From: Paracoccus mutanolyticus
Lineage (GTDB): Bacteria; Pseudomonadota; Alphaproteobacteria; Rhodobacterales; Rhodobacteraceae
Assembly: GCF_003285265.1 (NCBI RefSeq)
Contig: NZ_CP030239.1
Coordinates: 744,001-808,000, forward strand
Direction of reading: 5' to 3'
Length of the DNA: 64,000 nucleotides
The position numbers and the translations under genes are program-made. Shown in pieces: positions 1,304 through 13,258 of this stretch. The notes beneath the pieces were generated by a model. It did no database searches. It had not been told where the DNA came from and saw only the letters and a program-made list of their open reading frames with translations. How positions within the stretch are numbered: the first letter of the stretch is position 1; each line of letters begins with the position of its first letter.

Positions 1304-2955
1304 ATGGGAACTCCGCAGGACGAGGCCCGCGCCCTGATCGACCGCGTCTGGGATGCGGTGGTCGTAGGCACCGGGATCGGCGGCGCGACGCTGGGCCATG
1401 CGCTGGCGCAGGCCGGTCTGTCGGTCCTGTTCCTGGAGCGCGGACAGTTCAACGGAGCGGCCGGAAGCATCGCGGGCGACTGGCTGGAGGCCCTCGTCCC
1501 TGCGCGCCCCGAAGGCCCGAACTCCGAGGAGAGGCGTCGTGCCGGCCGCCTGGACGCGCCGATCTCGGATGTGTCCTCGGGTGAGGCAAAGCCGATCCTT
1601 CCCCTGCTGGGCATCGGAACCGGCGGCAGCAGCGCGCTTTACGGCATGGTGATGGAGCGCTTCTTTCCCTCGGACTTCACCCCCGGCGACTGGTTCTCGA
1701 AATCCGGCGGCGCAAACCTGCCAGAGCGCTGGCCGGTCAGTTATGACGAAATGGCACCCTTCTATGCCCGCGCCGAGGCGCTTTACGGCGTGCGCGCAAC
1801 GCCGGACCCGCTGCACGACTGCGCGGGCGCAAGGGGCATCAAGGAACCGCCGCCCCTTCATGCCGTCAGCCGCGAACTGGCCCAGGGACTGCGCGGGCGC
1901 GGCCTGCATCCCTATCATGTGCCGATGGCCTGCGAATACCGCGACGGCTGCCGCGAATGTCTGGGTTTTCTCTGCCCAATGGCGTGCAAGAACGACAGCG
2001 CGCGGGCCTGCCTGAAACCCGCGCTGGCCAGCGGCAAGGCGCATCTGCTGATCGGCTGCACCGTCGAGCGGATCCGCGCACGGGATGGAGAGGCGGTGGG
2101 CGTCGAAGCCAGCTGGCAGGGCGAAACGGTCTTCATCAAGGGCCGAATAGTCGCGCTTGCGGCAGGCGCTGTGCATTCGCCCGCGCTCCTTCTGCGGTCC
2201 GGCGGGGCGGGAGGGCTGGCAAACGGCTCGGGTCAGGTCGGGCGCAACCTGATGCGCCATCTGATCGACTACTATCTGGTGCGCACCCGTGCTCGGGCCG
2301 AGCCAGGGCCAGTCAAGCAGCTGGCCTTGAATGATTTCTACCATCACGAAGGCACCAAGCTGGGGACGCTCCAGGCCAATGGACGCATGCCACCAGCCCG
2401 TATCGTTGCCGCCGGCCTGCGCGCCGACTGGCGTCCGCATATCGGCCCGTTCGACGCGCTCTGGCCGCTGGCCCGCCCGGCGGTGGAATGGCAGGTGGCG
2501 CGGATGCTTCGGCGCAGCCACATTTTCGTCAGCTTCCTCGAAGACCTTCCCTATGCGGAAAACCGGATCACGTTGGGCGAGGATGGCCGGACCATCCGGC
2601 TTGCCTATAAGATCCCGCCGACCGATCCCGAGCGGCTTGCCCGTCAGCCGGTAATATTCCGCGGCGAGCGGCTTCCGATTTCCGGGTCCGCCCGATCCAT
2701 CGCGCGCATCTGATCGCCATGCTGGCCATGTCTGCGGCATCCTGCCGCTTTGGCGATGATCCGGCGACAAGCGTGCTGGACCGCAACAACCGGACCCATG
2801 AGGTGGCCAATCTCTATGTGGTGGACGGATCGTTCCTGCCCACGAGCGGCGGCACCAATCCCTCTCTTACCATTGCCGCCAACGCGCTGCGCGTCGCCGA
2901 CGCCATGCTGCGGACGGTTTTCGCCAGACCTGAGGAAACGCCTGCGACCCGCTGA
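1304..2955 (+). CDS. GMC-family FAD-dependent oxidoreductase (frame broken near the C-terminus)
   Basis: The N-terminus carries a Rossmann FAD motif (VVVGTGIGGATLGHALAQAG, residues about 18-37). The C-terminus, in another frame from about 2719, has GGTNPSLTIAANALR, the typical GMC end containing the conserved Asn. The frame changes between about 2640 and 2715. Around residues 210-235 there is a cysteine cluster (CEYRDGC, CLGFLC, MAC), which in some GMC enzymes marks an Fe-S or electron-transfer site; that role is inferred. No signal peptide is seen. It follows the ThDP enzyme by 4 nt. The substrate is unknown; oxidation of an alcohol or sugar is expected for the family. Confidence 0.8.
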
Positions 2956-3098
2956 ACGCGGGACGCCGGCATCAGGCGCGCGGACGGTTTATGCGCTTCG
3001 TTGCTGTCCATTTCGGTCCCACTCCGGGCCGCAACCCCGGCACTCCTGCAAATGCCCGTGCAACGTATCGACGCCATAGCGAGGGCGGAACAGGTCGA

Positions 3099-3275
3099 CC
3101 AGCTCCGCGCCGGGGCACACCAGTCGACCCCTTCCAGGAGCATCGACAGCTGCGCCGGTGTCAGCGCCACCTCGCCCTCCTTGGCCGAGGGCCAGACGAA
3201 CCGGCCCCGCTCAAGCCACTTCATGAACCTGCAGCCCGCCTGGCCGTCCCACCAGATAACCTTCACCAGATATTC
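3099..3275 (-). pseudogene. IS66-family TnpB (Orf2) fragment
   Basis: About 59 residues match the C-terminal half of IS66 TnpB: VKVIWWDGQAGCRF, LERGRFVWPSAKEGEVALT, then PAQLSMLLEGVDW. The N-terminal half is missing, and upstream codons do not resemble the family. The fragment begins within a few bases of where a second, oppositely oriented gene remnant ends (3273-3425), so the point near 3274 looks like an old insertion junction. No terminal inverted repeats or other IS66 genes are visible. It is a relic, not a functional element. Confidence 0.7.
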
Positions 3276-3425
3276 GTCGCCGTGAACCTCCGGCGCGAGG
3301 TGACGGCGCCGGTGCTTTGGCTCCTGAGCCGCGGGATCGAGGTAAAGTGCGTCAAGGTCACGCCCTTTGAGCTGGAACAGGGGTTGATCATCGACATCCA
3401 GCAGATCATCCCGACGCCCATCTGA
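3273..3425 (+). pseudogene. C-terminal fragment of a DUF4268/restriction-nuclease-like protein
   Basis: Fifty codons before a TGA read FVAVNLRREVTAPVLWLLSR, then GIEVKCVKVTPFELEQ and LIIDIQQIIPTP. From memory this resembles the segment after the catalytic core in PD-(D/E)XK-type proteins with DUF4268/DUF91-like domains, where strands of this kind precede a final IPLPE-type motif. Only this piece survives. Its left edge coincides with the IS66 TnpB fragment, which suggests an insertion cut the gene. The family name is a tentative recognition; the reading as a gene fragment is firmer. Confidence 0.45.
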
Positions 3426-3507
3426 TAGAGGGCAGGGATCAACCTGGGACCCTGCCATAGCCTCGCCCCAAGCAATTTGAGCGAAGGCGTCACGCTGGCC
3501 CTATCCC

Positions 3508-4884
3508 TTAATCCGGGATCAGCTTGCCCGGATTCATGATCCCGTGGGGATCGAGCGCCTGCTTGATGGCGCGCATCGGGCCCAGCGCCTCGCCGTGCTG
3601 GGCGGCCATCAGGGGGCGTTTGCCGATGCCGATGCCGTGTTCGCCGCTGATCGTGCCGCCGACCGCCAGCGCGCGCTCGGCCATGCGGACGGCGACGCGC
3701 TTGGCGGCGCCAAGCTCGGCCGCGTCGCCGGGCATCACCAGGATCTGGGAATGGAAGTTGCCGTCGCCGACATGGCCGACCATGGGGCCCAGAAGCCCCT
3801 CGGCGCGGATGTCGGCCGCCGCCGCGGCGACGGCTTCGGGCAGATGCGACATCGGCACGCAGACATCCGTCACCACCGCCGTCGCGCCCGGGCGCAGCGC
3901 CAGGCAGGCGCGATAGGCGCCGTGCCGCATCCGCCACAGTTGCGCGCGCTGTTCCGGCGCCGTCGCCCTGTCCACACTGCGGGAGCATTTCGGACCATGC
4001 TCCCGACAGCGGTACGACGTCCCCGGCCGATGTTCCTGCGCATGGGCGAGCCGTGGAAATCGTCTTGCAGGTGTCGCTGTTCGTGCAGGGCCGCGCCCGA
4101 GAAGGCGTTGAAGGCGCGTGCGGCGTCGGCATCGACGAATTCGATCCGCGCCATCGGGATGCCGGACTGGATGGTCATGGTCACGCATTCGACCGCCGCG
4201 TCGAGCGTCGGGAAGGCGCAGACGGCGGCGGCCACCTCCTCGGGCTGGCCATGCAGGCGCAGGGTCAGTTCTGTAATGATGCCCAACGTGCCCTCGGACC
4301 CGACGAAAAGGCCGGTCAGGTCATAGCCGGCGCTGGATTTCGCGGCCCGGGTGCCGGTGCGGATCACGCGGCCGTCGGCCAGCACGACCTGCAGCGCCAG
4401 CCGTTGTCGGCATGGTGCCGTAGCGCACCGCCGTCGTGCCGCTGGCGCGGGTCGCGGCCATGCCGCCGAGGCTGGCGTTGGCGCCGGGATCGACCGAGAA
4501 GAAAAGGCCGGTGGCGCGCAGGTCCTGATTCAACGCCTCGCGCGTGAGGCCGGGCTGGACATCGGCCTGCAGATCGCCCGGGCGGATGTCGAGCACGCGG
4601 TCCATGCGCATCAGGTCGAGGACCAGCCCGCCCTGGGTCGCCAGCGCATGGCCTTCGAGCGAGGTGCCGGTGCCCCAGCCGATGACCGGCACACGGTGTT
4701 CGTGGCAGAGGGCCAGGATGGCCGAGACCTCGTCGGTCGAGAGCGGCCAGGCGACGGCATCGGGCGGGGGCGCGGCATGGGCGGTTTCGGACTGGGCATG
4801 CAGGTCCCGGTCGGCCTGGGCCTGCGAGAAGCGCGGACCCAGCAGGCGAGCCAGGGCATCGCTGGCGGCGGCGGGAATCGGCAT
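3508..4884 (-). CDS. FAD-binding oxidase, D-lactate/glycolate dehydrogenase (GlcD) type, frame-broken
   Basis: Reading from 4884 the protein has the PCMH-type FAD domain (VIGWGTGTSLEGHA, SVDPGANASLGGMAATRASG), then GLFVGSEGTLGIITELTLRL, and a C-terminal half with VGHVGDGNFH and SGEHGIGIGKR, ending NPGKLIPD. Together these define the FAD-oxidase C family that oxidises D-2-hydroxyacids to 2-oxo acids. At least three frame changes are needed (near 4400, 4085 and 3965). The total length, about 458 codons, is normal for the family, so this may be an intact gene with sequence errors. It stands alone with no glcE or glcF beside it, which favours a GlcD/Dld-like single-subunit enzyme. Confidence 0.8.
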
Positions 4885-4977
4885 GGCTCTCCTCCAACTC
4901 GTATGGCAGAGGCTTAGGCCGCGGCGGGGCGAAGGGCAAGCGGGGCAGCGCCCGGCCCGGCGCCACCGGGTCGGGGT

Positions 4978-4998
4978 GGGTATTTGGAAAACGGTGAA
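4978..4998 (+). repeat. Intergenic repeat copy 1 (GGGTATTTGG family)
   Basis: GGGTATTTGGAAAACGGTGA followed by A. It lies just beyond the stop codon of the yedI-like gene, between it and the start of the FAD oxidase gene. Copies recur at 12533, 29437, 37163, 46513 (partial), 54217 and 58172. Confidence 0.7.
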
Positions 4999-5007
4999 AG
5001 CGCTGTC

Positions 5008-5973
5008 TCAGGCCCGGCCGAGGGCGCCGCGGACGGCGCCGATGGCGGGGGTGATGACGTGGTTCGCGACGGGGATCAGGACAAAGCCCAGCATGAGGCC
5101 CAAGATGCCGTCGAAGAAGGCCGTCGTCACCCAGGCAGCGACGCCCGGGGCGGCGGGAAGGGCCTGGGCCGCGGCCTCGGCCATGTGGTGGATCCATTCG
5201 TAGGGCTGGTGTTGGCCCAGGACATGGAGCCCGTGCACCACGATCTGGCCGCCGACCCAGATCATCGCGGCGGTGCCGACGATCGTCAGCACCTTCATGA
5301 AGCCGGGCATGAAGCGCACGATGCCGCGCCCGAGCCCTGCCGTCGCCCCGCCCCGCTGCGCGAGATGCAGGCCCACGTCGTCGGCCTTCACGATCAGCGC
5401 GACGAAGCCGTAGACCGCCACCGTGATGCCGATGGCCACGACCGCCAAGATCAGCGCCTTTTGCCAGATGGTGTCGTTGGTCGGGATCGTGGCCAGCGCG
5501 ATGGTCATGATCTCTGCCGACAGGATGAAGTCGGTCTTGATCGCGCCCTTGACGCGGGTTTCCTCGAGCCCGGCCGCGCCTTCGGGGGTGACGGTCAGGT
5601 GGGGTTCATTGACCTGGTGGTGACTGAGCGCGTGGAGGACCTTCTCGGCGCCCTCGAAGCACAGATAGGCGCCGCCGATCATCAGGAGCGGCGTGATCAG
5701 CCAGGGCGCGAAGGCCGAGAGCAGCAGCGCGATGGGCAGCAGGATCACCAGCTTGTTGAAGAACGAGCCGCGCGCGATCCGCCAGACGATGGGCAGCTCG
5801 CGCGCGGCGGTGAAGCCGTGAACGTATTTCGGCGTCACCGCCGCGTCGTCGATCACCGCGCCCGCCGCCTTGGCCCCGGCCTTGACCGCCTGCCCCGCAA
5901 CGTCGTCGACCGAGGCCGCCGCGATCTTGGCGATCCCCGCCACGTCATCCAGCAGCGCCAGCAATCCGCTCAT
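5008..5973 (-). CDS. yedI: YedI-like inner-membrane protein (DUF808)
   Basis: The 321-residue protein starts MSGLLALLDDVAGIAKIAA and contains ARELPIVWRIARGSFFNKLV, then hydrophobic stretches, then ITPLLMIGGAYLCFEGAEKV. This order and length fit the DUF808/YedI family of multi-pass inner-membrane proteins, whose function is not established. The frame is intact. It is transcribed alone; the next gene upstream, cobS, is divergent. A GGGTATTTGG-family repeat lies directly downstream of the stop. Confidence 0.85.
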   Translation of the reverse strand: MSGLLALLDDVAGIAKIAAASVDDVAGQAVKAGAKAAGAVIDDAAVTPKYVHGFTAARELPIVWRIARGSFFNKLVILLPIALLLSAFAPWLITPLLMIGGAYLCFEGAEKVLHALSHHQVNEPHLTVTPEGAAGLEETRVKGAIKTDFILSAEIMTIALATIPTNDTIWQKALILAVVAIGITVAVYGFVALIVKADDVGLHLAQRGGATAGLGRGIVRFMPGFMKVLTIVGTAAMIWVGGQIVVHGLHVLGQHQPYEWIHHMAEAAAQALPAAPGVAAWVTTAFFDGILGLMLGFVLIPVANHVITPAIGAVRGALGRA

Positions 5974-6111
5974 CCGTCACCTGTCCCGTTGTTTCCTGTT
6001 CCAGAGTGACCACGGAACGCGACGAGGGCAAGACGGGTTCATCCCTGCTGGCGCTTGCGCGCGCTGCCCGAATGCGCAATCAAGGGCCGGATGCGAGGAA
6101 AGGGCCCGACG

Positions 6112-7086
6112 ATGCTGGACGTGAACGCGAAACCGACCGAGGAAATCGACCTGCGCGAGGTCTTCGGCCTTGACAGCGACATGAAGGTCAAGGGCTTTGC
6201 CGAACGCGCCGACCGCGTGCCCGAGATCGACCCGACCTACAAGTTCGACCCGGACACGACCCTAGCGATTCTGGCGGGCTTTGCCTATAACCGCCGGGTG
6301 ATGATCCAGGGCTATCACGGCACCGGCAAGTCGACCCATATCGAGCAGGTCGCGGCGCGGCTGAACTGGCCCTGCGTGCGGGTGAACCTGGACAGCCACG
6401 TCAGCCGCATCGACCTGATCGGCAAGGATGCGATCAAGCTGGTCGACGGCAAGCAGGTCACGGTGTTTCACGAGGGCATCCTGCCCTGGGCGCTGCGCAA
6501 CCCGACCGCCATCGTCTTCGACGAATACGACGCCGGCCGCGCCGACGTGATGTTCGTGATCCAGCGCGTGCTGGAGGCCGAGGGCAAGCTGACGCTTCTG
6601 GACCAGAACGAGGTGATCTCTCCGAACCCGTATTTCCGGCTGTTCGCGACGGCGAACACGGTGGGCCTGGGCGACACCACGGGGCTTTATCATGGCACGC
6701 AGCAGATCAACCAGGGCCAGATGGACCGCTGGTCGCTGGTTTCGACGCTGAACTATCTGAGCCATGACGCCGAGGCCGCCATCGTGCTGGCTAAGAACCC
6801 GACCTACAACACCGAGAAGGGCCGCAAGATCATCAACCAGATGGTGACGCTGGCCGACCTGACGCGCACCGCCTTCATGCAGGGCGACCTGTCCACCGTC
6901 ATGTCGCCCCGCACGGTGATCGCCTGGGCGCAGAACGCCCGCATCTTCGGCGACAACGTGGGCTATGCCTTCCGCCTGACCTTCCTGAACAAATGCGACG
7001 AGCTGGAACGCCAGACGGTGGCCGAGTTCTATCAGCGCCTGTTCGACGAGGAACTGCCGGAAAGCGCGGCGGTCAAGGCGGGGTGA
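6112..7086 (+). CDS. cobS: Aerobic cobaltochelatase subunit CobS
   Basis: The 324-residue AAA+ ATPase has Walker [10 protein letters not shown] (about residue 66), Walker [14 protein letters not shown], and the family stretches [20 protein letters not shown] and [20 protein letters not shown]. CobS and CobT form the ATP-hydrolysing partners of CobN, which inserts cobalt into hydrogenobyrinate diamide in cobalamin synthesis. The ATG at 6112 is chosen because GAGGAAAGG lies 8 nt upstream; the in-frame ATG at 6055 lacks such a site. CobT lies 1.7 kb downstream instead of next door, and the last codons of cobS are duplicated in between. Confidence 0.95.
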
Positions 7087-7183
7087 TGGGGGCGCAGGAC
7101 CGAGCGCCAGCAATTCGAGCCATGCGAGCACGTCCTATGTTCGCCACGTGAAAGCAGGTGTCTTGATTCGTCTAGCCCCTCAC
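7049..7183 (+). repeat. Direct repeat, copy 1: 3' end of cobS plus downstream sequence
   Basis: The segment runs from AGGAACTGCC inside cobS, through its stop codon, to CTAGCCCCTCAC. A near-identical copy lies at 7318-7458. The coding tail (AAVKAG, stop) and the following ATGCGAGCACGTCCTATGTT are the best conserved parts; copies differ by small indels and substitutions. Confidence 0.8.
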
Positions 7184-7317
7184 ACAAGACGTTGCCCTCA
7201 CCATACCTTCATAGGAGCCAGCTGGATGGGAGCGACCGATGAAGTGCCACCATAGACGGCATTGGCCTCCATGTAGCGTCGGATTGTCTCATATGCATGT
7301 GCTCTTTCATATGCATA
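7184..7317. other. Spacer between the cobS-tail repeats; no gene recognised
   Basis: This 134-bp stretch is less GC-rich than its surroundings and includes ATATGCATGTGC followed by CATATGCATAAGG (two ATATGCAT copies). A minus-strand open stretch crosses it and ends in TSSVAPIQLAPMKVW and a stop, but I recognise no family. It may be the remainder of a small insertion that duplicated the cobS tail. Confidence 0.4.
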
Positions 7318-7458
7318 AGGAACTGCCAAAGCGCGGCGGTCAAGGCGGGGTGATGGGGGCGCAGGACCGTGCGGGAGCCGTGTTGCGAGCCATGCGAGCA
7401 CGTCCTATGTTCGCCACATGATTGCAACAGAAGGCCTTCGCGCGATCTAGCCCCTCAC
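7318..7458 (+). repeat. Direct repeat, copy 2: non-functional cobS tail
   Basis: Second copy of the cobS 3' end. It repeats the ELP, AAVKAG and stop region (with two bases missing after AACTGCC) and the downstream GGGGGCGCAGGACCG and CACGTCCTATGTTCGCCAC blocks, ending CTAGCCCCTCAC immediately before the rhodanese gene's stop. It has no start and is not a gene. Confidence 0.8.
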
Positions 7459-7970
7459 GCCCCCGCCCTGTTCCACGGCATCCGCTGCAACAGCAGCGCC
7501 ATGCCGCACCAGCCGGTGATGCCGGCCAGCGCCAGCATTGCGCCGATCAGCCCGGCCAGGGCAAAGAACGCAGGCGCGACCGCGAACCCTGCCAGCACCA
7601 GCGCCAGCACGATCAGCCCGACCGCGATCTGCACCTGGCGGAACAGCGGCAGCGCGCGCGAAGCGGTGACGACCGGCAGGCCGGCGGCCTTCCAGGCCTC
7701 GATGCCGCCCTCCAGATTGTAGCTCTCGCCTTCGCGGGCGCCCGCAAGCGCGCAGGCCGAGGCGCCGCGTGTCCCGCGCTGGCACTGGAACACCACCCGC
7801 CGCCCGGCCAGGGCGGGCAAGGCCGCCGGCAGGCTGTCCAGCGGCACCGACACCGCCAGCGCCACATGCTCGGCGCGGAATTCCTCGGCCGAGCGCACGT
7901 CGACCAGCACGGCGCTGCCCTCGGCCAGCCAGCGGGCGACCTGGGTTGCGGAAACAAGCGTCTGGGTCAT
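7455..7970 (-). CDS. Rhodanese-domain protein with C-terminal membrane anchor (DUF2892)
   Basis: Residues about 5-110 form a rhodanese domain with LVDVRSAEEFRAEHV and the active-site loop CQRGTRG, whose Cys would carry the persulfide. The C-terminal 60 residues (FRQVQIAVGLIVLALVLAG, then a second hydrophobic run) are a DUF2892-type two-helix anchor, so the domain probably sits at the membrane. The start codon overlaps the stop of the upstream ArsR-type regulator by 4 nt (ATGA), implying translational coupling. The pairing with a BigR/SqrR-like regulator points to sulfide or persulfide handling. The frame is intact at 171 residues. Confidence 0.88.
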   Translation of the reverse strand: MTQTLVSATQVARWLAEGSAVLVDVRSAEEFRAEHVALAVSVPLDSLPAALPALAGRRVVFQCQRGTRGASACALAGAREGESYNLEGGIEAWKAAGLPVVTASRALPLFRQVQIAVGLIVLALVLAGFAVAPAFFALAGLIGAMLALAGITGWCGMALLLQRMPWNRAGA

Positions 7971-8298
7971 TCGGATTTTCCCTCGCAGAAGTGGCGGTAA
8001 AGCACCTGCATGATCTCGGCCACCGCCGGATGCGCGATGCGATAGTAAAGCGTGCGGTGGTCGCGGCGGACGGCGACGATGCCCTCGGCCCTGAGCCGGG
8101 CGAGATGCTGCGACATCGAGGTCTGGCCGATGCCCGTCGCCTGAACCAGCGCGCCGACGTGGCGTTCGCCCTGCGCCAGGCAGCACAGCACCAGCAGGCG
8201 CTGCGGATGGCCGGCCCCTTGATGAAGGCCCGAGGCGCGCCCGAAGCGCTGGCCGCCATGGCGACGAGGTCGGAAAGAAGATCCGGTGGCAGGTTCAT
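7967..8298 (-). CDS. ArsR-family regulator, BigR/SqrR-like, with two conserved cysteines
   Basis: A winged-helix protein of about 110 residues. The N-terminus (MNLPPDLLSDLVAMAASASG) and the remainder (LAQGERHVGALVQATGIGQT, then SMSQHLARLRAEGIVAVRRD) are in different frames, with the break near 8200-8230. A Cys pair at LCC early and a Cys at YRHFC near the end sit where BigR and SqrR carry the two cysteines that form a tetrasulfide on reaction with sulfane sulfur. It overlaps the rhodanese gene (ATGA) and is divergent from the AhpD-like gene, with an inverted repeat between. Repression of both sides by this protein is inferred. Confidence 0.75.
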
Positions 8299-8310
8299 GG
8301 TCGGCCTTTA

Positions 8311-8348
8311 CAATTCATGATTTCCTTATATCAATGATTAATGAATTG
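8311..8348. promoter_or_regulatory. Candidate operator of the BigR/SqrR-like regulator
   Basis: CAATTCAT at 8311-8318 and ATGAATTG at 8341-8348 form a perfect 8-bp inverted repeat with a 22-bp AT-rich spacer. It fills the 67-bp divergent region between the regulator gene and the AhpD-like gene. AT-rich ATTC...GAAT-type sites are typical of this regulator group; binding here is inferred. Confidence 0.5.
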
Positions 8349-8365
8349 ACAAGAGGAGATTCGCC

Positions 8366-8729
8366 ATGACCCCGGACAAGGACTATCCCGCCATCATCGC
8401 CGGCATCGGCGCCTATACGGCCGAGCTGCGTCGCACAGTTCCGCCGGTCATGCAGGGCTTTGGCGCGCTGGCCCGCGCCGCGACCGCCCCGGGCAGCGTC
8501 GATGCCAAGACCAAGGAACTGATCGCCCTGGCGATCGGCGTCACCAGCGCTGCGATGGCTGCATCGGCTTTCACGGCAAGGCGCTGGCGAACTGGGCGCC
8601 AGCCGCGACGAGGTGGCCGAGGTTCTTGGCCGGTGCGTCTGCATGGGCGGCGGGCCAGCGCTGATGTATGCCGCCGACGCGCTGCGCGCCTATGACCAGT
8701 TCGCCGCCGCCTCCGCCCGCGCGGCCTGA
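8366..8729 (+). CDS. Carboxymuconolactone decarboxylase/AhpD-like protein (two frame breaks)
   Basis: After a clear site (AAGAGGAG, 7 nt before ATG), the protein reads MTPDKDYPAIIAGIGAYTAE and SVDAKTKELIALAIGVT. In a second frame follow RCDGCIGFHGKALA, and in a third DEVAEVLGRC and GGGPALMYAADALRAYDQFA. The CxxCxxxH motif (CDGCIGFH) is the redox centre of AhpD-like proteins. Both breaks are explained by one C missing from short C runs (near 8545 and 8595). About 121 residues would be normal for the family. It diverges from the BigR/SqrR-like regulator and probably belongs to the same thiol/persulfide response. Confidence 0.8.
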
Positions 8730-8795
8730 GCGGGACCGACACCGAGGGGCGACTGGCCCCTCGACAGCGGCGGGAATCTGGCCCAAAAACAGGGC

Positions 8796-10656
8796 ATGAA
8801 AAAATCCGACAACCCCGCCGATCCGTTCAAGAAGGCCCTGACCGAGGCCACCCGCGCCATGGCCGAGGAGCATGAGCTGAACGTGACCTTCAGCGCCGAT
8901 CCCTCGGGCGTCTCGGGCGACACCATGCGCCTGCCGCAGGTCAGCCGCCGCATGACCCGCGACGAGGTGCTGATGGCACGGGGCACGGCGGATGCGCTGG
9001 CGATGAAGCTGCGCCATCACGACGCGGCGACGCATGCGAAATACGTCCCCGCGGGCCCGATGGCGCGCGACCTTTACGAGGCGATGGAGACGGCGCGCTG
9101 CAGGCCTTGGGCGCGCGCGACAGGCTCGGCGCGCTATCCAACATCGACGCCAAGCTGGGTCAGGAAGCCGACCGCAAGGGCTATGGCCAGATCAAGGCGC
9201 CGGCCGATGCGCCGCTGGCGGTGGCCGCGGGCTATCTGGTGCGGCAGGCGGCAACTGGACGGGCGCTGCCGTCCTCGGCCCAGCATGTCGCCGACCTGTG
9301 GCGGCCCTTCGTCGAGGAGCAGGCGGGCGCGGACCTGGACCAGGTGAACGGCGTGCTGGGCGATCAGGCGGCCTTTGCGCGGCTGGCCCGCAAGGTGATT
9401 TCCGACCTCGGCTATGGCGACCAGCTGGGCGACGACCCGGACGAGCCGCAGGAGGACGAGGCCGACGAGAACGCCGAGCAGGACGAGGAGGCGGGCGACA
9501 ACCAGTCCCGCGACCAGAGCCAGGACGAGGAGGCCGAGGCCAGCCCCGAGCGCAGCCAGGACCAGACCCAGGACGAGCGCCAGGCCCAGGTCAGCATGGA
9601 CGACCAGTCCGACGAGGAGATGGCCGACGAGGCCGAGATGTCCGAGGCCGAGAGCCCGCCCGACCTGCCCCCCCGGTCAGCGAGGCGAGCGCCGATTACA
9701 AGGTCTATACCCAGGACTTCGACGAGGAGATCCGGGCCGAGGACCTGGCCGACCCGGCCGAGCTGCAGCGGCTGCGCGCCTATCTGGACACGCAGCTGGA
9801 GCCCCTGCGCGGCGCCGTCAGCCGGCTGGCCAACAAGCTGCAGCGCCGCCTGCAGGCGCAGCAGAGCCGCAGCTGGGAGTTCGACAAGGAGGAGGGCGTC
9901 CTGGACGCGGGCCGTCTGGCGCGCGTGGTGGCGAACCCGACCACGCCGCTGAGCTTCAAGGTCGAGAGGGACACCGAGTTCCGCGACACGGTGGTGACGC
10001 TGCTTCTGGACAACTCGGGCTCGATGCGGGGGCGGCCGATCAGCATCGCCGCGATCTGCGCCGACGTGCTGGCCCGCACGCTGGAGCGCAGCCAGGTCAA
10101 GGTCGAGATCCTGGGCTTTACCACTCGCGCCTGGAAGGGCGGCCAGAGCCGCGAGAAATGGCTGGCCGAGGGCCGGCCGGCGCATCCGGGGCGGCTGAAC
10201 GACCTGCGCCACATCATCTACAAGGCGGCGGACGCGCCCTGGCGGCGGGTGCGCCCGAACCTGGGGCTGATGATGAAGGAAGGCCTGCTCAAGGAAAACA
10301 TCGACGGCGAGGCGCTGGAATGGGCGCATCGCCGGCTGGTGCGCCGCCCCGAGCAGCGCCGCATCCTGATGGTGATCTCGGACGGGGCGCCGGTCGACGA
10401 TTCGACCCTTTCGGTCAACCCGGCGAACTATCTGGAAAAGCATCTGCGCGACGTGATCGCCATGATCGAGAAGAAGAAGCAGGTCGAGCTGCTGGCCATC
10501 GGCATCGGCCATGACGTGACGCGCTATTACCAGCGCGCGGTGACGATCACCGACGCCGAGCAACTGGCCGGCGCGATGACGGAACAGCTGGCCGCGCTGT
10601 TCGAAAGCGACCCGCGCAAGCGCGCCCGCGCCATGCACCAGCGCCGCGCCGGCTGA
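8796..10656 (+). CDS. cobT: Aerobic cobaltochelatase subunit CobT (two frame breaks)
   Basis: It starts [20 protein letters not shown]. The middle, in a second frame from about 9100, contains a long Asp/Glu/Gln-rich linker (9430-9660). The C-terminal part, in a third frame from about 9680, is a von Willebrand A domain with the MIDAS motif DNSGSMRG and later [12 protein letters not shown]. This is the CobT layout; it pairs with CobS to drive cobalt insertion by CobN. Breaks fall near 9102 and at a run of seven C (9668-9674). Total length, about 620 codons, matches full-length CobT. It is separated from cobS by the rhodanese/regulator/AhpD cassette. Confidence 0.92.
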
Positions 10657-10676
10657 GGGCGTCGAAAGGAAAAGCC

Positions 10677-12488
10677 ATGTTCCAGACCTACGACAGCCAT
10701 TCGGACCCGGCGGCGCATGGGCCGCGCCTGGCCGCGCTGCGGGCCGAGCTTGCCTCGCGCCGGCTGGACGGGTTCATCGTGCCGCGCGCCGACGCCCATC
10801 AGGGCGAATATGTCGCCGCCCGCGACGCGCGGCTGGCCTGGCTGACCGGGTTCTACCGGCAGCGCGGGCTTTGCATCGTGACCGGGGACCGCGCGGGCAT
10901 GTTCATCGACGGGCGCTATCGCGTGCAGGTCAAGGCCGAGATCGACGCGGCGCATTTCATCCCGGTGCCCTGGCCCGAGGTGCGCCCCTCGGCCTGGCTG
11001 GCCGAGGCGCTGCCGCAGGGCGGGCGCGTGGGCTATGACCCCTGGCTGCACACGCGGCGCGAGATCCGCGAGATGGAAAAGGGGCTGGCCGGGTCGGGCG
11101 TCGCGCTGATCGCGGTCGAGACGAACCCGATCGACGCGGTCTGGACCGACCAGCCGCCGGCCCCGGCCGGCGCGGTGCGGCTGTGGCCCGATGCCGTCGC
11201 CGGCGAGACGGCGGCCGAGAAGCGCGAGCGCATCGCGGCCGCCCTGCGCGCGGCCGAGCAGCGCGCCGCCGTGCTGACGCTGCCGGATTCGCTGTCCTGG
11301 CTGCTGAACATCCGGGGCACGGACGTGCCCAAGAACCCGGTCGTCCAGGGCTTTGCCATCATCGAGGACGACGCCCGCGTCGCCGTCTTTGCCGAGCCCG
11401 CCAAGTTCGGCCCCGAGGTTCGCGCGGCGCTGGGGAACGCCGTCACCATCCTGCCCCCCGAGGCGCTGACACCCGCGCTGACGAACCTGGGCGGCCCGGT
11501 GCGGCTGGACCCCGCCACCGCCCCCGATCAGGTGTTCCGGCTGGTCGAAAGCATGGGCGCGCGCATCGCCGAGGCGCCCGACCCCGTGATCCTGCCCAAG
11601 GCCGCCAAGAACCCCGCCGAGGTCGCCGGCATGCGCGCGGCGCATCTGCGCGACGGCGCCGCCGTGACCGAACTGCTGTGCTGGCTGGACCGGCGCGCGC
11701 CGCGGCTGGAGGACGAGCCGCTGACCGAGATCGGCGTCGCCCGAAAGCTCGAGGAACTGCGCATGGCGCGGGGGATCCTGGACATCAGCTTCGACACGAT
11801 CTCGGCCACCGGGCCGCATGGCGCGATCTGCCATTACCGGGTCAGCGCCGACAGCGACCTGCGCATCCTGCCGGGCCAGGTGCTGCTGGTCGATTCGGGC
11901 GGGCAATATCCGGACGGCACCACCGACATTACCCGCACCCTGCCGATGGGCGACCCTGATCCGGCGGTGCGCCGGCCCTATACCCGCGTACTGCAAGGCA
12001 TGATCGCGCTGTCGCGGGCGCAGTTCCCGCGCGGCGTCGCCGGCTGCCACCTGGACGCGCTGGCCCGCGCGCCCCTGTGGATGGAGGGGCTGGACTATGA
12101 CCACGGCACTGGCCATGGCGTCGGCGCCGGGCTTTCGGTGCATGAGGGGCCGGTCAGGATTTCCCGCGTGTCCGACATCCCGCTGGAGCCCGGGATGATC
12201 CTGTCGAACGAGCCCGGCTATTACCGCGAGGGCGCCTTCGGCATCCGCATCGAGAACCTGCTGGTGGTGCACCCGGTCGAAAGCCCGGACGGGCGCGCCA
12301 TGCTGGGCTTCGAGACGATGACCCTGGCCCCCATCGACCGACGGCTGATCGACCCGGCGCTGCTGTCGGGGGACGAGGTGGCCTGGCTTGACGCCTATCA
12401 CGCCCGGGTGCGGGACCAGATCGGCCCGCTGGTCGACCCCGAGGTGCAGGACTGGCTGAACCGGGCGACGCGCCCCCTGGCGGGCTGA
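10677..12488 (+). CDS. Aminopeptidase P family protein (Xaa-Pro aminopeptidase, M24B)
   Basis: 603 residues, intact, preceded by GGAAAGG 8 nt before the ATG. It has two creatinase-type N-terminal domains (starting about LAALRAELASRRLDGFIVPR) and a pita-bread catalytic domain. The metal ligands are visible: Asp in LLVDSGGQYPDGTTDITRT, His in GTGHGVGAGLSVHEG, and Glu in NEPGYYREGAFGIRIENL. The length fits the larger, three-domain aminopeptidase P type. It probably removes N-terminal residues preceding proline in cytosolic peptides. It follows cobT by 20 nt. Confidence 0.92.
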   Translation: MFQTYDSHSDPAAHGPRLAALRAELASRRLDGFIVPRADAHQGEYVAARDARLAWLTGFYRQRGLCIVTGDRAGMFIDGRYRVQVKAEIDAAHFIPVPWPEVRPSAWLAEALPQGGRVGYDPWLHTRREIREMEKGLAGSGVALIAVETNPIDAVWTDQPPAPAGAVRLWPDAVAGETAAEKRERIAAALRAAEQRAAVLTLPDSLSWLLNIRGTDVPKNPVVQGFAIIEDDARVAVFAEPAKFGPEVRAALGNAVTILPPEALTPALTNLGGPVRLDPATAPDQVFRLVESMGARIAEAPDPVILPKAAKNPAEVAGMRAAHLRDGAAVTELLCWLDRRAPRLEDEPLTEIGVARKLEELRMARGILDISFDTISATGPHGAICHYRVSADSDLRILPGQVLLVDSGGQYPDGTTDITRTLPMGDPDPAVRRPYTRVLQGMIALSRAQFPRGVAGCHLDALARAPLWMEGLDYDHGTGHGVGAGLSVHEGPVRISRVSDIPLEPGMILSNEPGYYREGAFGIRIENLLVVHPVESPDGRAMLGFETMTLAPIDRRLIDPALLSGDEVAWLDAYHARVRDQIGPLVDPEVQDWLNRATRPLAG

Positions 12489-12532
12489 ACGCCCCTGCTG
12501 CGGGCGGCGGTGCCCGTGGCGCGGGCGGCCTT

Positions 12533-12553
12533 GGGTATTTGGGAAACGGTGAA
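12533..12553 (+). repeat. Intergenic repeat copy 2 (GGGTATTTGG family)
   Basis: GGGTATTTGGGAAACGGTGA followed by A, one substitution from copy 1. It lies between the aminopeptidase stop and the DUF1045 start. Confidence 0.7.
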
Positions 12554-12578
12554 GAGCCGGGCGTCGGAAAGGGACGAG

Positions 12579-13258
12579 ATGGAATTTCGGCGCTATGCGA
12601 TCTATCATCTGCCCGAGGGCGCGCTGGGGCGGATGGGGACGGCCTGGCTGGGCTGGGACCCGCGCAGGGGGTCGCCGGCCGCCCGGCCCGTCGTCAGGGC
12701 GCTGCCGGGCGATGCCGAGGCGCTGACCCGCGCGCCTCGACCCTATGGCTTTCACGCGACGCTCAAGGCGCCGTTCCGGCTGGCCGCCGGGCATGGGCCG
12801 GACGAGTTGCTGCGCCGCGCGGCCCTGGTCGCGACCACCTGGCGCCCTTCGACCTGGCGCTGGAACTGGGTGCGTGGCACGGCTTCGTCGCGCTGCGCCC
12901 GCGCCAGCAGCCCTCCGCCCTGCTGGCGCTGGAGCAGGCGCTGGTCACGCGGCTTGACGATCTGCGCGCGCCCCTGACGGCCGAGGAGCGCGAGCGGCGG
13001 CGTCCCGAGACCCTGCCCGAGACGGCCCGCGCCCATCTGGACCATTGGGGCTACCCTTGGGTGCTGGGCCTGTTCGCCTATCACCTGACGCTGTCGGGAA
13101 GCCTGAAGGCCGAAGCGGCGGGGCAGCTGGTCCGCGCGCTGGAGCCGGTCTTTGCCCCTCTGATCCGGGCGCCGATGCCGGTGCGGGCGGTGTCGCTGCT
13201 GGGCGAGGACGCCGGGGGCCGCTTTCATCTGCTGGGCGAGGTCCCGCTGCGCGGCTAG
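12579..13258 (+). CDS. DUF1045 2H-phosphoesterase-like protein (phosphonate-associated family), one frame break
   Basis: The start at 12579 reads MEFRRYAIYHLPEG. The two signature H-x-T motifs of the 2H fold are present: YGFHATLKAPF (about residue 59) and FAYHLTLSG (about residue 168). The frame changes near 12838. Members of this family are named putative phosphonate metabolism proteins because they often sit in phn operons, but their reaction is unknown to me. Here a PhnM-like gene lies 1.1 kb downstream, beyond corA on the other strand, which supports the association. A GGGTATTTGG-family repeat precedes it. Confidence 0.82.

Follow-up and report, generated by a model that had tools for sequence, protein, structure and literature searches.

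An AhpD-like gene in place of a persulfide dioxygenase homologue beside a YgaV-type regulator and a membrane rhodanese in Paracoccus

What does a gene of the AhpD family do beside a regulator of the sulfane-sulfur-sensing type? The question is raised by a short cassette in a 64,000-nucleotide stretch of Paracoccus mutanolyticus DNA (contig NZ_CP030239.1, positions 744001-808000 of a genome assembled as one contig of 3.59 Mb), referred to here as the window. The three genes of the cassette lie at 7455-8729, between two genes whose names, cobS and cobT, we presume. They encode an ArsR-family regulator, a membrane rhodanese whose start codon overlaps the regulator stop by 4 nt (ATGA), and, in the opposite direction, an AhpD-like protein with a CxxCxxxH site. 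An initial annotation, made from the sequence, described a possible persulfide-sensing cassette, with a regulator translationally coupled to an anchored rhodanese and divergent from an AhpD-like gene that might encode a persulfide or disulfide reductase. The cassette is confirmed, and the coordinates and gene identities are as described there, with the coupling being the ATGA overlap and the CxxCxxxH site reading CDGCIGFH; the content and order of the genes are beyond chance. The interpretation is partly supported, since half of the cassette is already known; the unexpected half is the AhpD-like gene, which stands where most of the related loci examined carry a homologue of persulfide dioxygenase (PDO). 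On balance we favour, with some reserve, a local bidirectional operon that is derepressed by persulfide or polysulfide and in which the AhpD-like enzyme would reduce persulfides or disulfides.

Window DNA at the cassette is 97-98% identical to that of the type strain Paracoccus yeei ATCC BAA-599, whose copies of the regulator (109 aa) and the AhpD-like protein (121 aa) are unbroken. Proteins of the type strain were used for most of the comparisons that follow, but the window's own rhodanese for the match with YgaP structures; the window's regulator and AhpD-like protein were scored against profiles across their frame breaks, with the breaks filled by X.

The exchange becomes visible when loci with related rhodaneses are lined up. 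A pattern-based scan of genome contigs with the rhodanese as query gave 138 relatives, and the best 80 were kept. In 49 of these 80 loci, no more than 600 bp separate regulator and rhodanese; 30 have no regulator match, and in one the regulator is farther away. The recognised divergent gene in the 49 loci encodes a metallo-β-lactamase (MBL) protein in 38, an AhpD-like protein in 4, neither in 6 and is anomalous in 1 (locus L110); no locus has both. Since many loci are interrelated and only the best 80 of 138 were taken, 38 to 4 does not represent a frequency in nature. The four AhpD-like slots belong to P. yeei, P. shanxieyensis, a Xanthobacter metagenome-assembled genome (MAG) and a Pseudomonadota MAG, and so the three-gene arrangement, which the initial annotation had proposed to seek in other genomes, does recur. 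In a check of five of these 38 MBL proteins, each matched best to the Blh model in its dioxygenase half, at 369-392 bits, below the full-length Blh cut-off of 625. Thus, most of the loci examined combine a dioxygenase homologue, a regulator and a membrane rhodanese, and the P. yeei type is one in which an AhpD-like gene has been exchanged for the dioxygenase homologue. These alphaproteobacterial PDO cassettes share with the P. yeei cassette a divergent enzyme, a regulator and an adjoining rhodanese; they differ in the enzyme and in the dyad of the gap, which is TTGCTAATTTAGCAA-like.

No MBL-fold dioxygenase gene of the kind that marks the Blh/ETHE1 operons is present in the P. yeei cassette. 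When the window genome was queried with the MBL protein of a P. denitrificans plasmid (E<=1e-4), the single match was GloB, which scores 258.7 bits against its own cut-off of 200.8. A query for a sulfide:quinone oxidoreductase (SQR)-like protein, the first 150 aa of a flavoprotein, found nothing in the window genome, an empty answer that shows little and covers one SQR type. A larger cluster around a BigR-like regulator lies on P. denitrificans PD1222 plasmid 1 (L354, 190727-198978), with cytochrome b and c genes, two DUF2892 genes, YeeE/YedE, MBL and sulfur transferase genes, and genes for resistance-nodulation-division (RND) efflux.

The regulator is of a familiar kind. Its nearest solved relatives are a set of ArsR structures (13ct and 6o8k-6o8o), which we take to be SqrR, together with BigR (3pqj) and Escherichia coli YgaV (3cuo). 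The first cysteine of its LCC motif and the cysteine of its HFC motif, C38 and C104 of the intact protein, align with cysteines of the SqrR set, BigR and YgaV. Loss of these sensor cysteines after frame correction had been named initially as a result that would refute sensing; of 66 regulator rows, P. yeei among them, 64 keep the pair, the exceptions being L110, which has a poor open frame, and L251. The adjacent C39 is confined to the two Paracoccus rows. By its ArsR winged-helix family and its cysteine pair, the regulator is of the SqrR/BigR/YgaV type and would be a sulfane sulfur sensor. Close homologues of the regulator also adjoin a cytochrome bd oxidase subunit I-like gene that falls below equivalog cut-offs (L327, 48-1794) and a sulP transporter gene above its subfamily cut-off (L325, 1375-3315), which are possible other targets of this regulator type.

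The rhodanese, 99% identical to the P. yeei ATCC BAA-599 protein, consists of a rhodanese domain followed by a YgaP-type membrane anchor, each scoring above its cut-off. Its solved relatives are the E. coli YgaP chains 2mpn and 2moi, and its candidate active residue, Cys63, lies in an FQCQRG loop aligned with FHCQAG of YgaP. Together, the regulator type and the two YgaP domains indicate that the regulator-rhodanese half is of the ygaVP type. In E. coli, YgaV represses ygaVP, an autoregulated operon with a published sulfide response; sulfide relieves the repression via the two cysteines of YgaV, Cys31 and Cys98, which form a tetrasulfide link upon sulfide treatment, and the in vivo substrates of YgaP are described as unknown (PMC9774250). 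The cassette and E. coli ygaVP have the identical gene pair in the same order and two cysteines at aligned places. They differ in the divergent AhpD-like gene and the 38-bp dyad of the cassette; in the two enterobacterial loci examined (L065 and L071), no sulfur gene was recognised on the divergent side. Hence, of the persulfide-sensing cassette first proposed, the regulator and the divergent layout stand, while the regulator-rhodanese half is not new.

The AhpD-like protein scores 67.4 bits with PF02627 (cut-off 23) and 41.6 with TIGR00778 (cut-off 27.8). Its closest solved relative is 5dik/5dip, presumably Lpg0406 of Legionella, a structure that by sequence already represents the AhpD-like fold. 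Residues E51, C63, C66 and H70 are kept in 40/40 relatives and in 20/20 control paralogues, the two sets of loci described below. Their spacing equals that of Glu118, Cys130, Cys133 and His137 of M. tuberculosis AhpD (PMC3141380), so that four of the five AhpD relay residues are present by spacing. The fifth position (65) is Gly; this relay residue is reported as not absolutely conserved among AhpDs (PMC3141380). Between the two cysteines, DG occurs in 27/40 relatives and 0/20 controls, and 16/20 controls have CxPC. The protein shares membership of the carboxymuconolactone decarboxylase (CMD)/AhpD family and the E-x11-C-xx-C-xxx-H site with 5dik/5dip, PA0269, RclX and the PfAR-1 AhpD, and differs from them in the genomic setting of its gene. 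The thiol-redox role first proposed for it is plausible.

Sulfide-type gene neighbourhoods are indeed among the settings of AhpD-like genes. With the AhpD-like protein as query, 26 of 385 genomes of the class matched at E<=1e-25 and 57 of 398 genomes of the phylum at E<=1e-28. Twenty class loci, the best match in each of the top 20 genomes with the window's own excluded, and 20 phylum loci, hand-picked with many matches of one family (f188) skipped and four lower-scoring ones taken, made up a foreground of 40, in which contig ends shortened eight stretches. As controls, 20 paralogue loci were hand-picked from the same family and genus; they are taxonomically narrower than the foreground, and their identity (41-55%) overlaps that of the foreground (47-72%). 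A sulfur-type gene, counted as BigR-like, rhodanese, SQR-like, DUF2892, YeeE/YedE or PDO-like, lies within 7 kb in 25/40 AhpD-like loci and 2/20 controls (Fisher p = 1e-4, with the loci of either set not independent and the neighbour queries themselves originating in P. yeei and in plasmid loci that the same AhpD-like query had retrieved). Rhodanese genes are found near 17 of the 40 loci, BigR-like genes near 13 and SQR-like genes near 12; both control loci with a sulfur-type neighbour have an SQR-like one. A query-independent Pfam count agrees with this enrichment: around the 40 loci, the 157 nearest called genes include 7 rhodaneses and 7 ArsR proteins, whereas for the 80 control neighbours neither is among the 25 of 68 families listed, so that each occurs at most once, and Pyr_redox_2 occurs twice.

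Particular loci illustrate these neighbourhoods. On Acinetobacter sp. plasmid pANC7951.1 (L176, 448-4974), a BigR-like regulator is divergent from yeeE, yedE and genes for a Blh-type dioxygenase (MBL), TauE, a rhodanese, an AhpD-like protein and a methyltransferase, in this order. The operon lies between transposase genes and is possibly a mobile sulfide-handling operon. On Rhizobium plasmids, the regulator is divergent from an AhpD-like gene that is followed by DUF2892 and RND efflux genes, and among these plasmids only that of R. rhizogenes has an SQR-like flavoprotein gene after the AhpD-like gene. In R. binae, a close regulator stands with SQR-like, DUF2892 and RND genes, and no AhpD-like gene is annotated within 4 kb. 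Nine plasmid loci were examined for an AhpD-like gene, three of them without usable gene annotation.

The pairing of regulator and AhpD-like gene also leaves a trace in the trees, both of which are quick and built from few columns. Nine loci (L032, L033, L034, L042, L169, L171, L237, L257 and L258) cluster together whether the tree is built from the regulator (SH-aLRT 97) or from the AhpD-like protein (92), and the pair therefore looks co-inherited. On the regulator tree, presence of an AhpD-like gene requires three changes (shuffled mean 12); L241 with L259, and L265, lie apart from the main group, and the place of L243 is unsure.

The initial annotation regarded the AhpD-like protein as no standard member of described sulfide regulons. 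This agrees with the searchable literature, in which an association of AhpD or carboxymuconolactone decarboxylase with a sulfide regulon is not described among the matches listed, a scope with most subscription literature outside it; in the genomes, by contrast, members of this subfamily recur next to genes of the BigR-like, SQR-like, YeeE/YedE and rhodanese kinds. In a selenoproteome review, CMD/AhpD-like and type III SQR proteins occupy separate table rows (PMC13188914), and section 8 of a paper on Acinetobacter baumannii BigR names yeeE, yedE and pdo2, with no AhpD-like gene mentioned there (PMC7315123). The BigR operon of Xylella and Agrobacterium and the Acinetobacter BigR system, which contain Blh/PDO, TauE and YeeE/YedE genes, resemble the cassette in having a two-cysteine BigR-type repressor switch over a sulfide-handling operon; unlike them, the P. 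yeei cassette is without a dioxygenase, TauE or YeeE/YedE gene.

A candidate site for the switch lies in the 67-bp gap between regulator and AhpD-like gene, where the perfect repeat noted initially, CAATTCAT-N22-ATGAATTG, is indeed present. Its left arm, CAATTCAT, has a single + strand copy in the window (8311), and its right arm, ATGAATTG, likewise a single copy (8341). An exact search of the 3.59-Mb genome finds the spaced repeat at one place only, which suggests a local switch. With up to three mismatches allowed, two further, unconvincing places appear, while a backwards control finds one; the search for a wider regulon by this route gave nothing convincing. The exact core ATTC-N26-GAAT recurs outside the window, in 4 of 13 other regulator/AhpD-like divergent gaps: those of P. 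yeei, P. shanxieyensis, a Rhizobium leguminosarum plasmid and an R. rhizogenes plasmid, the last with one letter changed in the right arm. This recurrence, two cases being in Rhizobium, supports the candidate operator. In P. shanxieyensis, the repeat arms reach 12 bp, as they do in 0.02% of shuffled versions of that gap. When the window gap is aligned with 8 of the 13 others (all but L241, L243, L258, L259 and L265), 18 columns are invariant, including CTTnACA and ATATnA. By eye, these are putative -35 and -10 elements of the AhpD-like gene, the -35 coinciding with the left arm, and TTGTCA-N16-TATAAG on the reverse strand is a putative promoter of the regulator. Also by eye, TTGCTAA or TCTAAT elements precede the AhpD-like genes of L241, L265 and L243.

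The arms of the candidate operator contain the ATTC and GAAT halves of the SqrR operator, which is given as ATTC-N8-GAAT for RcSqrR, but N26 apart rather than N8. The N8 form was not found in the window gap, the 13 other AhpD-type gaps or the 24 of 38 PDO-type gaps examined. Those 24 gaps (from L036-L093) have another dyad, TTGCTAATTTAGCAA-like and often followed by TCTAATATA; TTAGCAA, on either strand, occurs in 21/24. For BigR itself, binding at the -10 region of the operon that it controls and release from the DNA upon oxidation of Cys42 and Cys108 are reported (PMC5823870).

From these elements, the following switch can be proposed. Under conditions free of sulfide stress, a dimer of the BigR/YgaV type would occupy 8311-8348 and block both promoters. 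As sulfane sulfur rises, C38 and C104 would become linked by a disulfide or polysulfide bridge and the repressor would leave; a linkage of this kind is reported for BigR (PMC5823870) and YgaV (PMC9774250). Leftward transcription would then yield the regulator and the YgaP-like rhodanese, and rightward transcription the AhpD-like protein. The rhodanese would move sulfane sulfur at the membrane, and the CDGC...H site of the AhpD-like protein would clear it via thiol-disulfide chemistry (on persulfides, polysulfides or mixed disulfides), working beside or instead of the persulfide dioxygenase that fills the slot in most relatives examined. What points to reduction of persulfides, polysulfides or mixed disulfides by the AhpD-like protein is the slot exchange, taken together with its gene neighbours and its CxxC site. 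Published support is indirect, from the strong allicin resistance that an AhpD-family gene alone can give (PMC7119367) and from the protection by RclX against HOCl and HOSCN (PMC7950407).

The cassette is an accessory element. Of 125 Paracoccus genomes, three have close matches to both the regulator and the AhpD-like gene: that of the window strain, one conspecific and one matching P. shanxieyensis by identity. The 1.5-kb flanks of 15 other Paracoccus cobT loci gave no match (0/15) to the sulfur-gene queries; cobS is within reach in 8 of these 15, at gaps of 33 to 1123 bp. This comparison and the rarity of the cassette indicate an accessory insertion at a variable site. Across the class, a search with the regulator matched 36 of 385 genomes, and among the 29 loci fetched besides the window's own, one (L324) has an AhpD-like gene within 1.5 kb of the regulator.

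Several observations weigh against a persulfide-responsive operon with an AhpD-like reductase. With respect to the regulator, the score against the NCBIfam BigR equivalog NF040642 is 72.6 bits, below the cut-off of 155 (which is exceeded in 0/14 control genomes, E. coli among them), and the protein is therefore not filed as BigR proper. Two close regulators, those of L323 and R. binae, have no AhpD-like gene nearby, which weakens the rule, tried on these data, that a regulator of at least 55% identity always accompanies an AhpD-like gene (4/4 including P. yeei; 0/46 in the rhodanese-recruited set). With respect to the enzyme, the equal conservation of E, C, C and H in the controls, and the Tyr that replaces the site His in the R. 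leguminosarum plasmid copy, mean that the site alone is no pointer to persulfides. No recognised sulfur gene is present in 15/40 AhpD-like loci, and the sulfur-neighbour label changes 15 times on the AhpD-like tree (shuffled mean 25); the association is thus not clean, and a clean split of that tree by sulfur neighbours is ruled out. With respect to the DNA, a repeat such as that of the 67-bp gap is held by 3.5% of its dinucleotide shuffles, and the window holds 117, so that the repeat alone is barely beyond chance and is ruled out as proof of regulation by itself. The exact core is missing from 9 of the 13 other divergent gaps; a sigma70 promoter scan called neither predicted promoter and gave only an unrelated 9-of-12 match; and the different dyad of the PDO-type gaps means that operator knowledge is not simply transferable. 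Finally, presence in 3 of 125 genomes shows the cassette to be dispensable in Paracoccus.

Some of these points would suit a protein of more ordinary function. The AhpD-like protein could be a peroxidase or peroxiredoxin partner directed against sulfide-linked oxidative stress, co-regulated with the rhodanese and with no action on persulfides. The four relay residues and their equal conservation in control paralogues fit this explanation, as do the reports that M. tuberculosis AhpD and PA0269 are peroxidases (PMC3141380) and that RclX, an AhpD-like protein of P. aeruginosa, protects against HOCl and HOSCN (PMC7950407). It sits poorly with the place of the gene, in the slot of a persulfide dioxygenase homologue, and with relatives that adjoin SQR-like, YeeE/YedE and rhodanese genes; we regard it as unlikely, though a serious contender. 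Alternatively, the cassette may be a general thiol-stress operon whose regulator senses some other thiol-active signal: thiosulfinates, electrophiles, tributyltin-like compounds, heme or general disulfide stress. Tributyltin derepresses ygaVP and YgaV binds heme (PMC9774250); an AhpD-family gene alone, when overexpressed, gives strong allicin resistance by a mechanism called unclear (PMC7119367); and thioredoxins make up 2 of 77 neighbours in one set. However, the commonest recognised neighbours of the regulator and AhpD-like gene are sulfide-handling genes, and a general thiol-stress operon seems improbable to us.

Very improbable, finally, is a locus decaying to a pseudogene remnant in the window strain, for although five insertions or deletions relative to P. 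yeei ATCC BAA-599 (near 8209, 8223, 8244, 8545 and 8588) strike two of the three genes of a locus rare in the genus, cobT carries the same kind of lesion, 34 small ones are spread over 2187-12967, and unbroken copies exist in the type strain and P. shanxieyensis. The breakage of cobT and the 34 lesions point instead to sequencing error as the likely cause of the frameshifts in the regulator and AhpD-like genes, in an assembly that seems error-prone; a dense cluster of such differences lies at 3973-4043. Table 1 gives the coordinates of the cassette and its flanks. Downstream of the rhodanese, about 166 bp (7152-7317) are without a match in P. yeei ATCC BAA-599, and direct repeats flank them (7061-7111/7328-7378 and 7116-7156/7386-7426), each with one place in the type strain. 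The stretch 7061-7426 thus looks like a small insertion with duplication; no plasmid match to the extra stretch within it was found.

Table 1. Features of the cassette and its immediate surroundings, in window coordinates
Feature	Position	Strand	Remarks
cobS-like AAA ATPase gene	6055-7086	+	Flanking context, outside the cassette
YgaP-like membrane rhodanese	7455-7970	-	PF00581 and PF11127 above cut-off
ArsR-family regulator, SqrR/BigR/YgaV type	7967-8298	-	PF01022 above cut-off; frameshifted in the window
Candidate operator CAATTCAT-N22-ATGAATTG	8311-8348		Overlapped by promoter-like elements for both directions, by eye
AhpD-like CMD-family protein, CDGCIGFH	8366-8729	+	PF02627 and TIGR00778; two frameshifts in the window
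cobT-like gene	8796-10656	+	Flanking context; frameshifted in the window

What YgaP acts on in vivo, and what AhpD-like proteins act on, are questions that published work describes as open. The exchange of a dioxygenase homologue for an AhpD-like gene, under a like regulator and beside a like rhodanese, provides a widespread redox family with a concrete hypothesis about its substrate. It suggests a new job for AhpD-like proteins, one that can be tested with two purified proteins. As a broader and distinctly tentative idea, on the doubtful side in our estimation, the CDGC-type AhpD-like subfamily may be a persulfide- and polysulfide-handling family of BigR-type regulons, unrecognised in this role in the literature searched, and in some lineages an oxygen-independent thiol reductase that replaces the oxygen-dependent dioxygenase, with the P. 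yeei cassette as its minimal form. If true, this would give such bacteria a route for clearing persulfides without oxygen.

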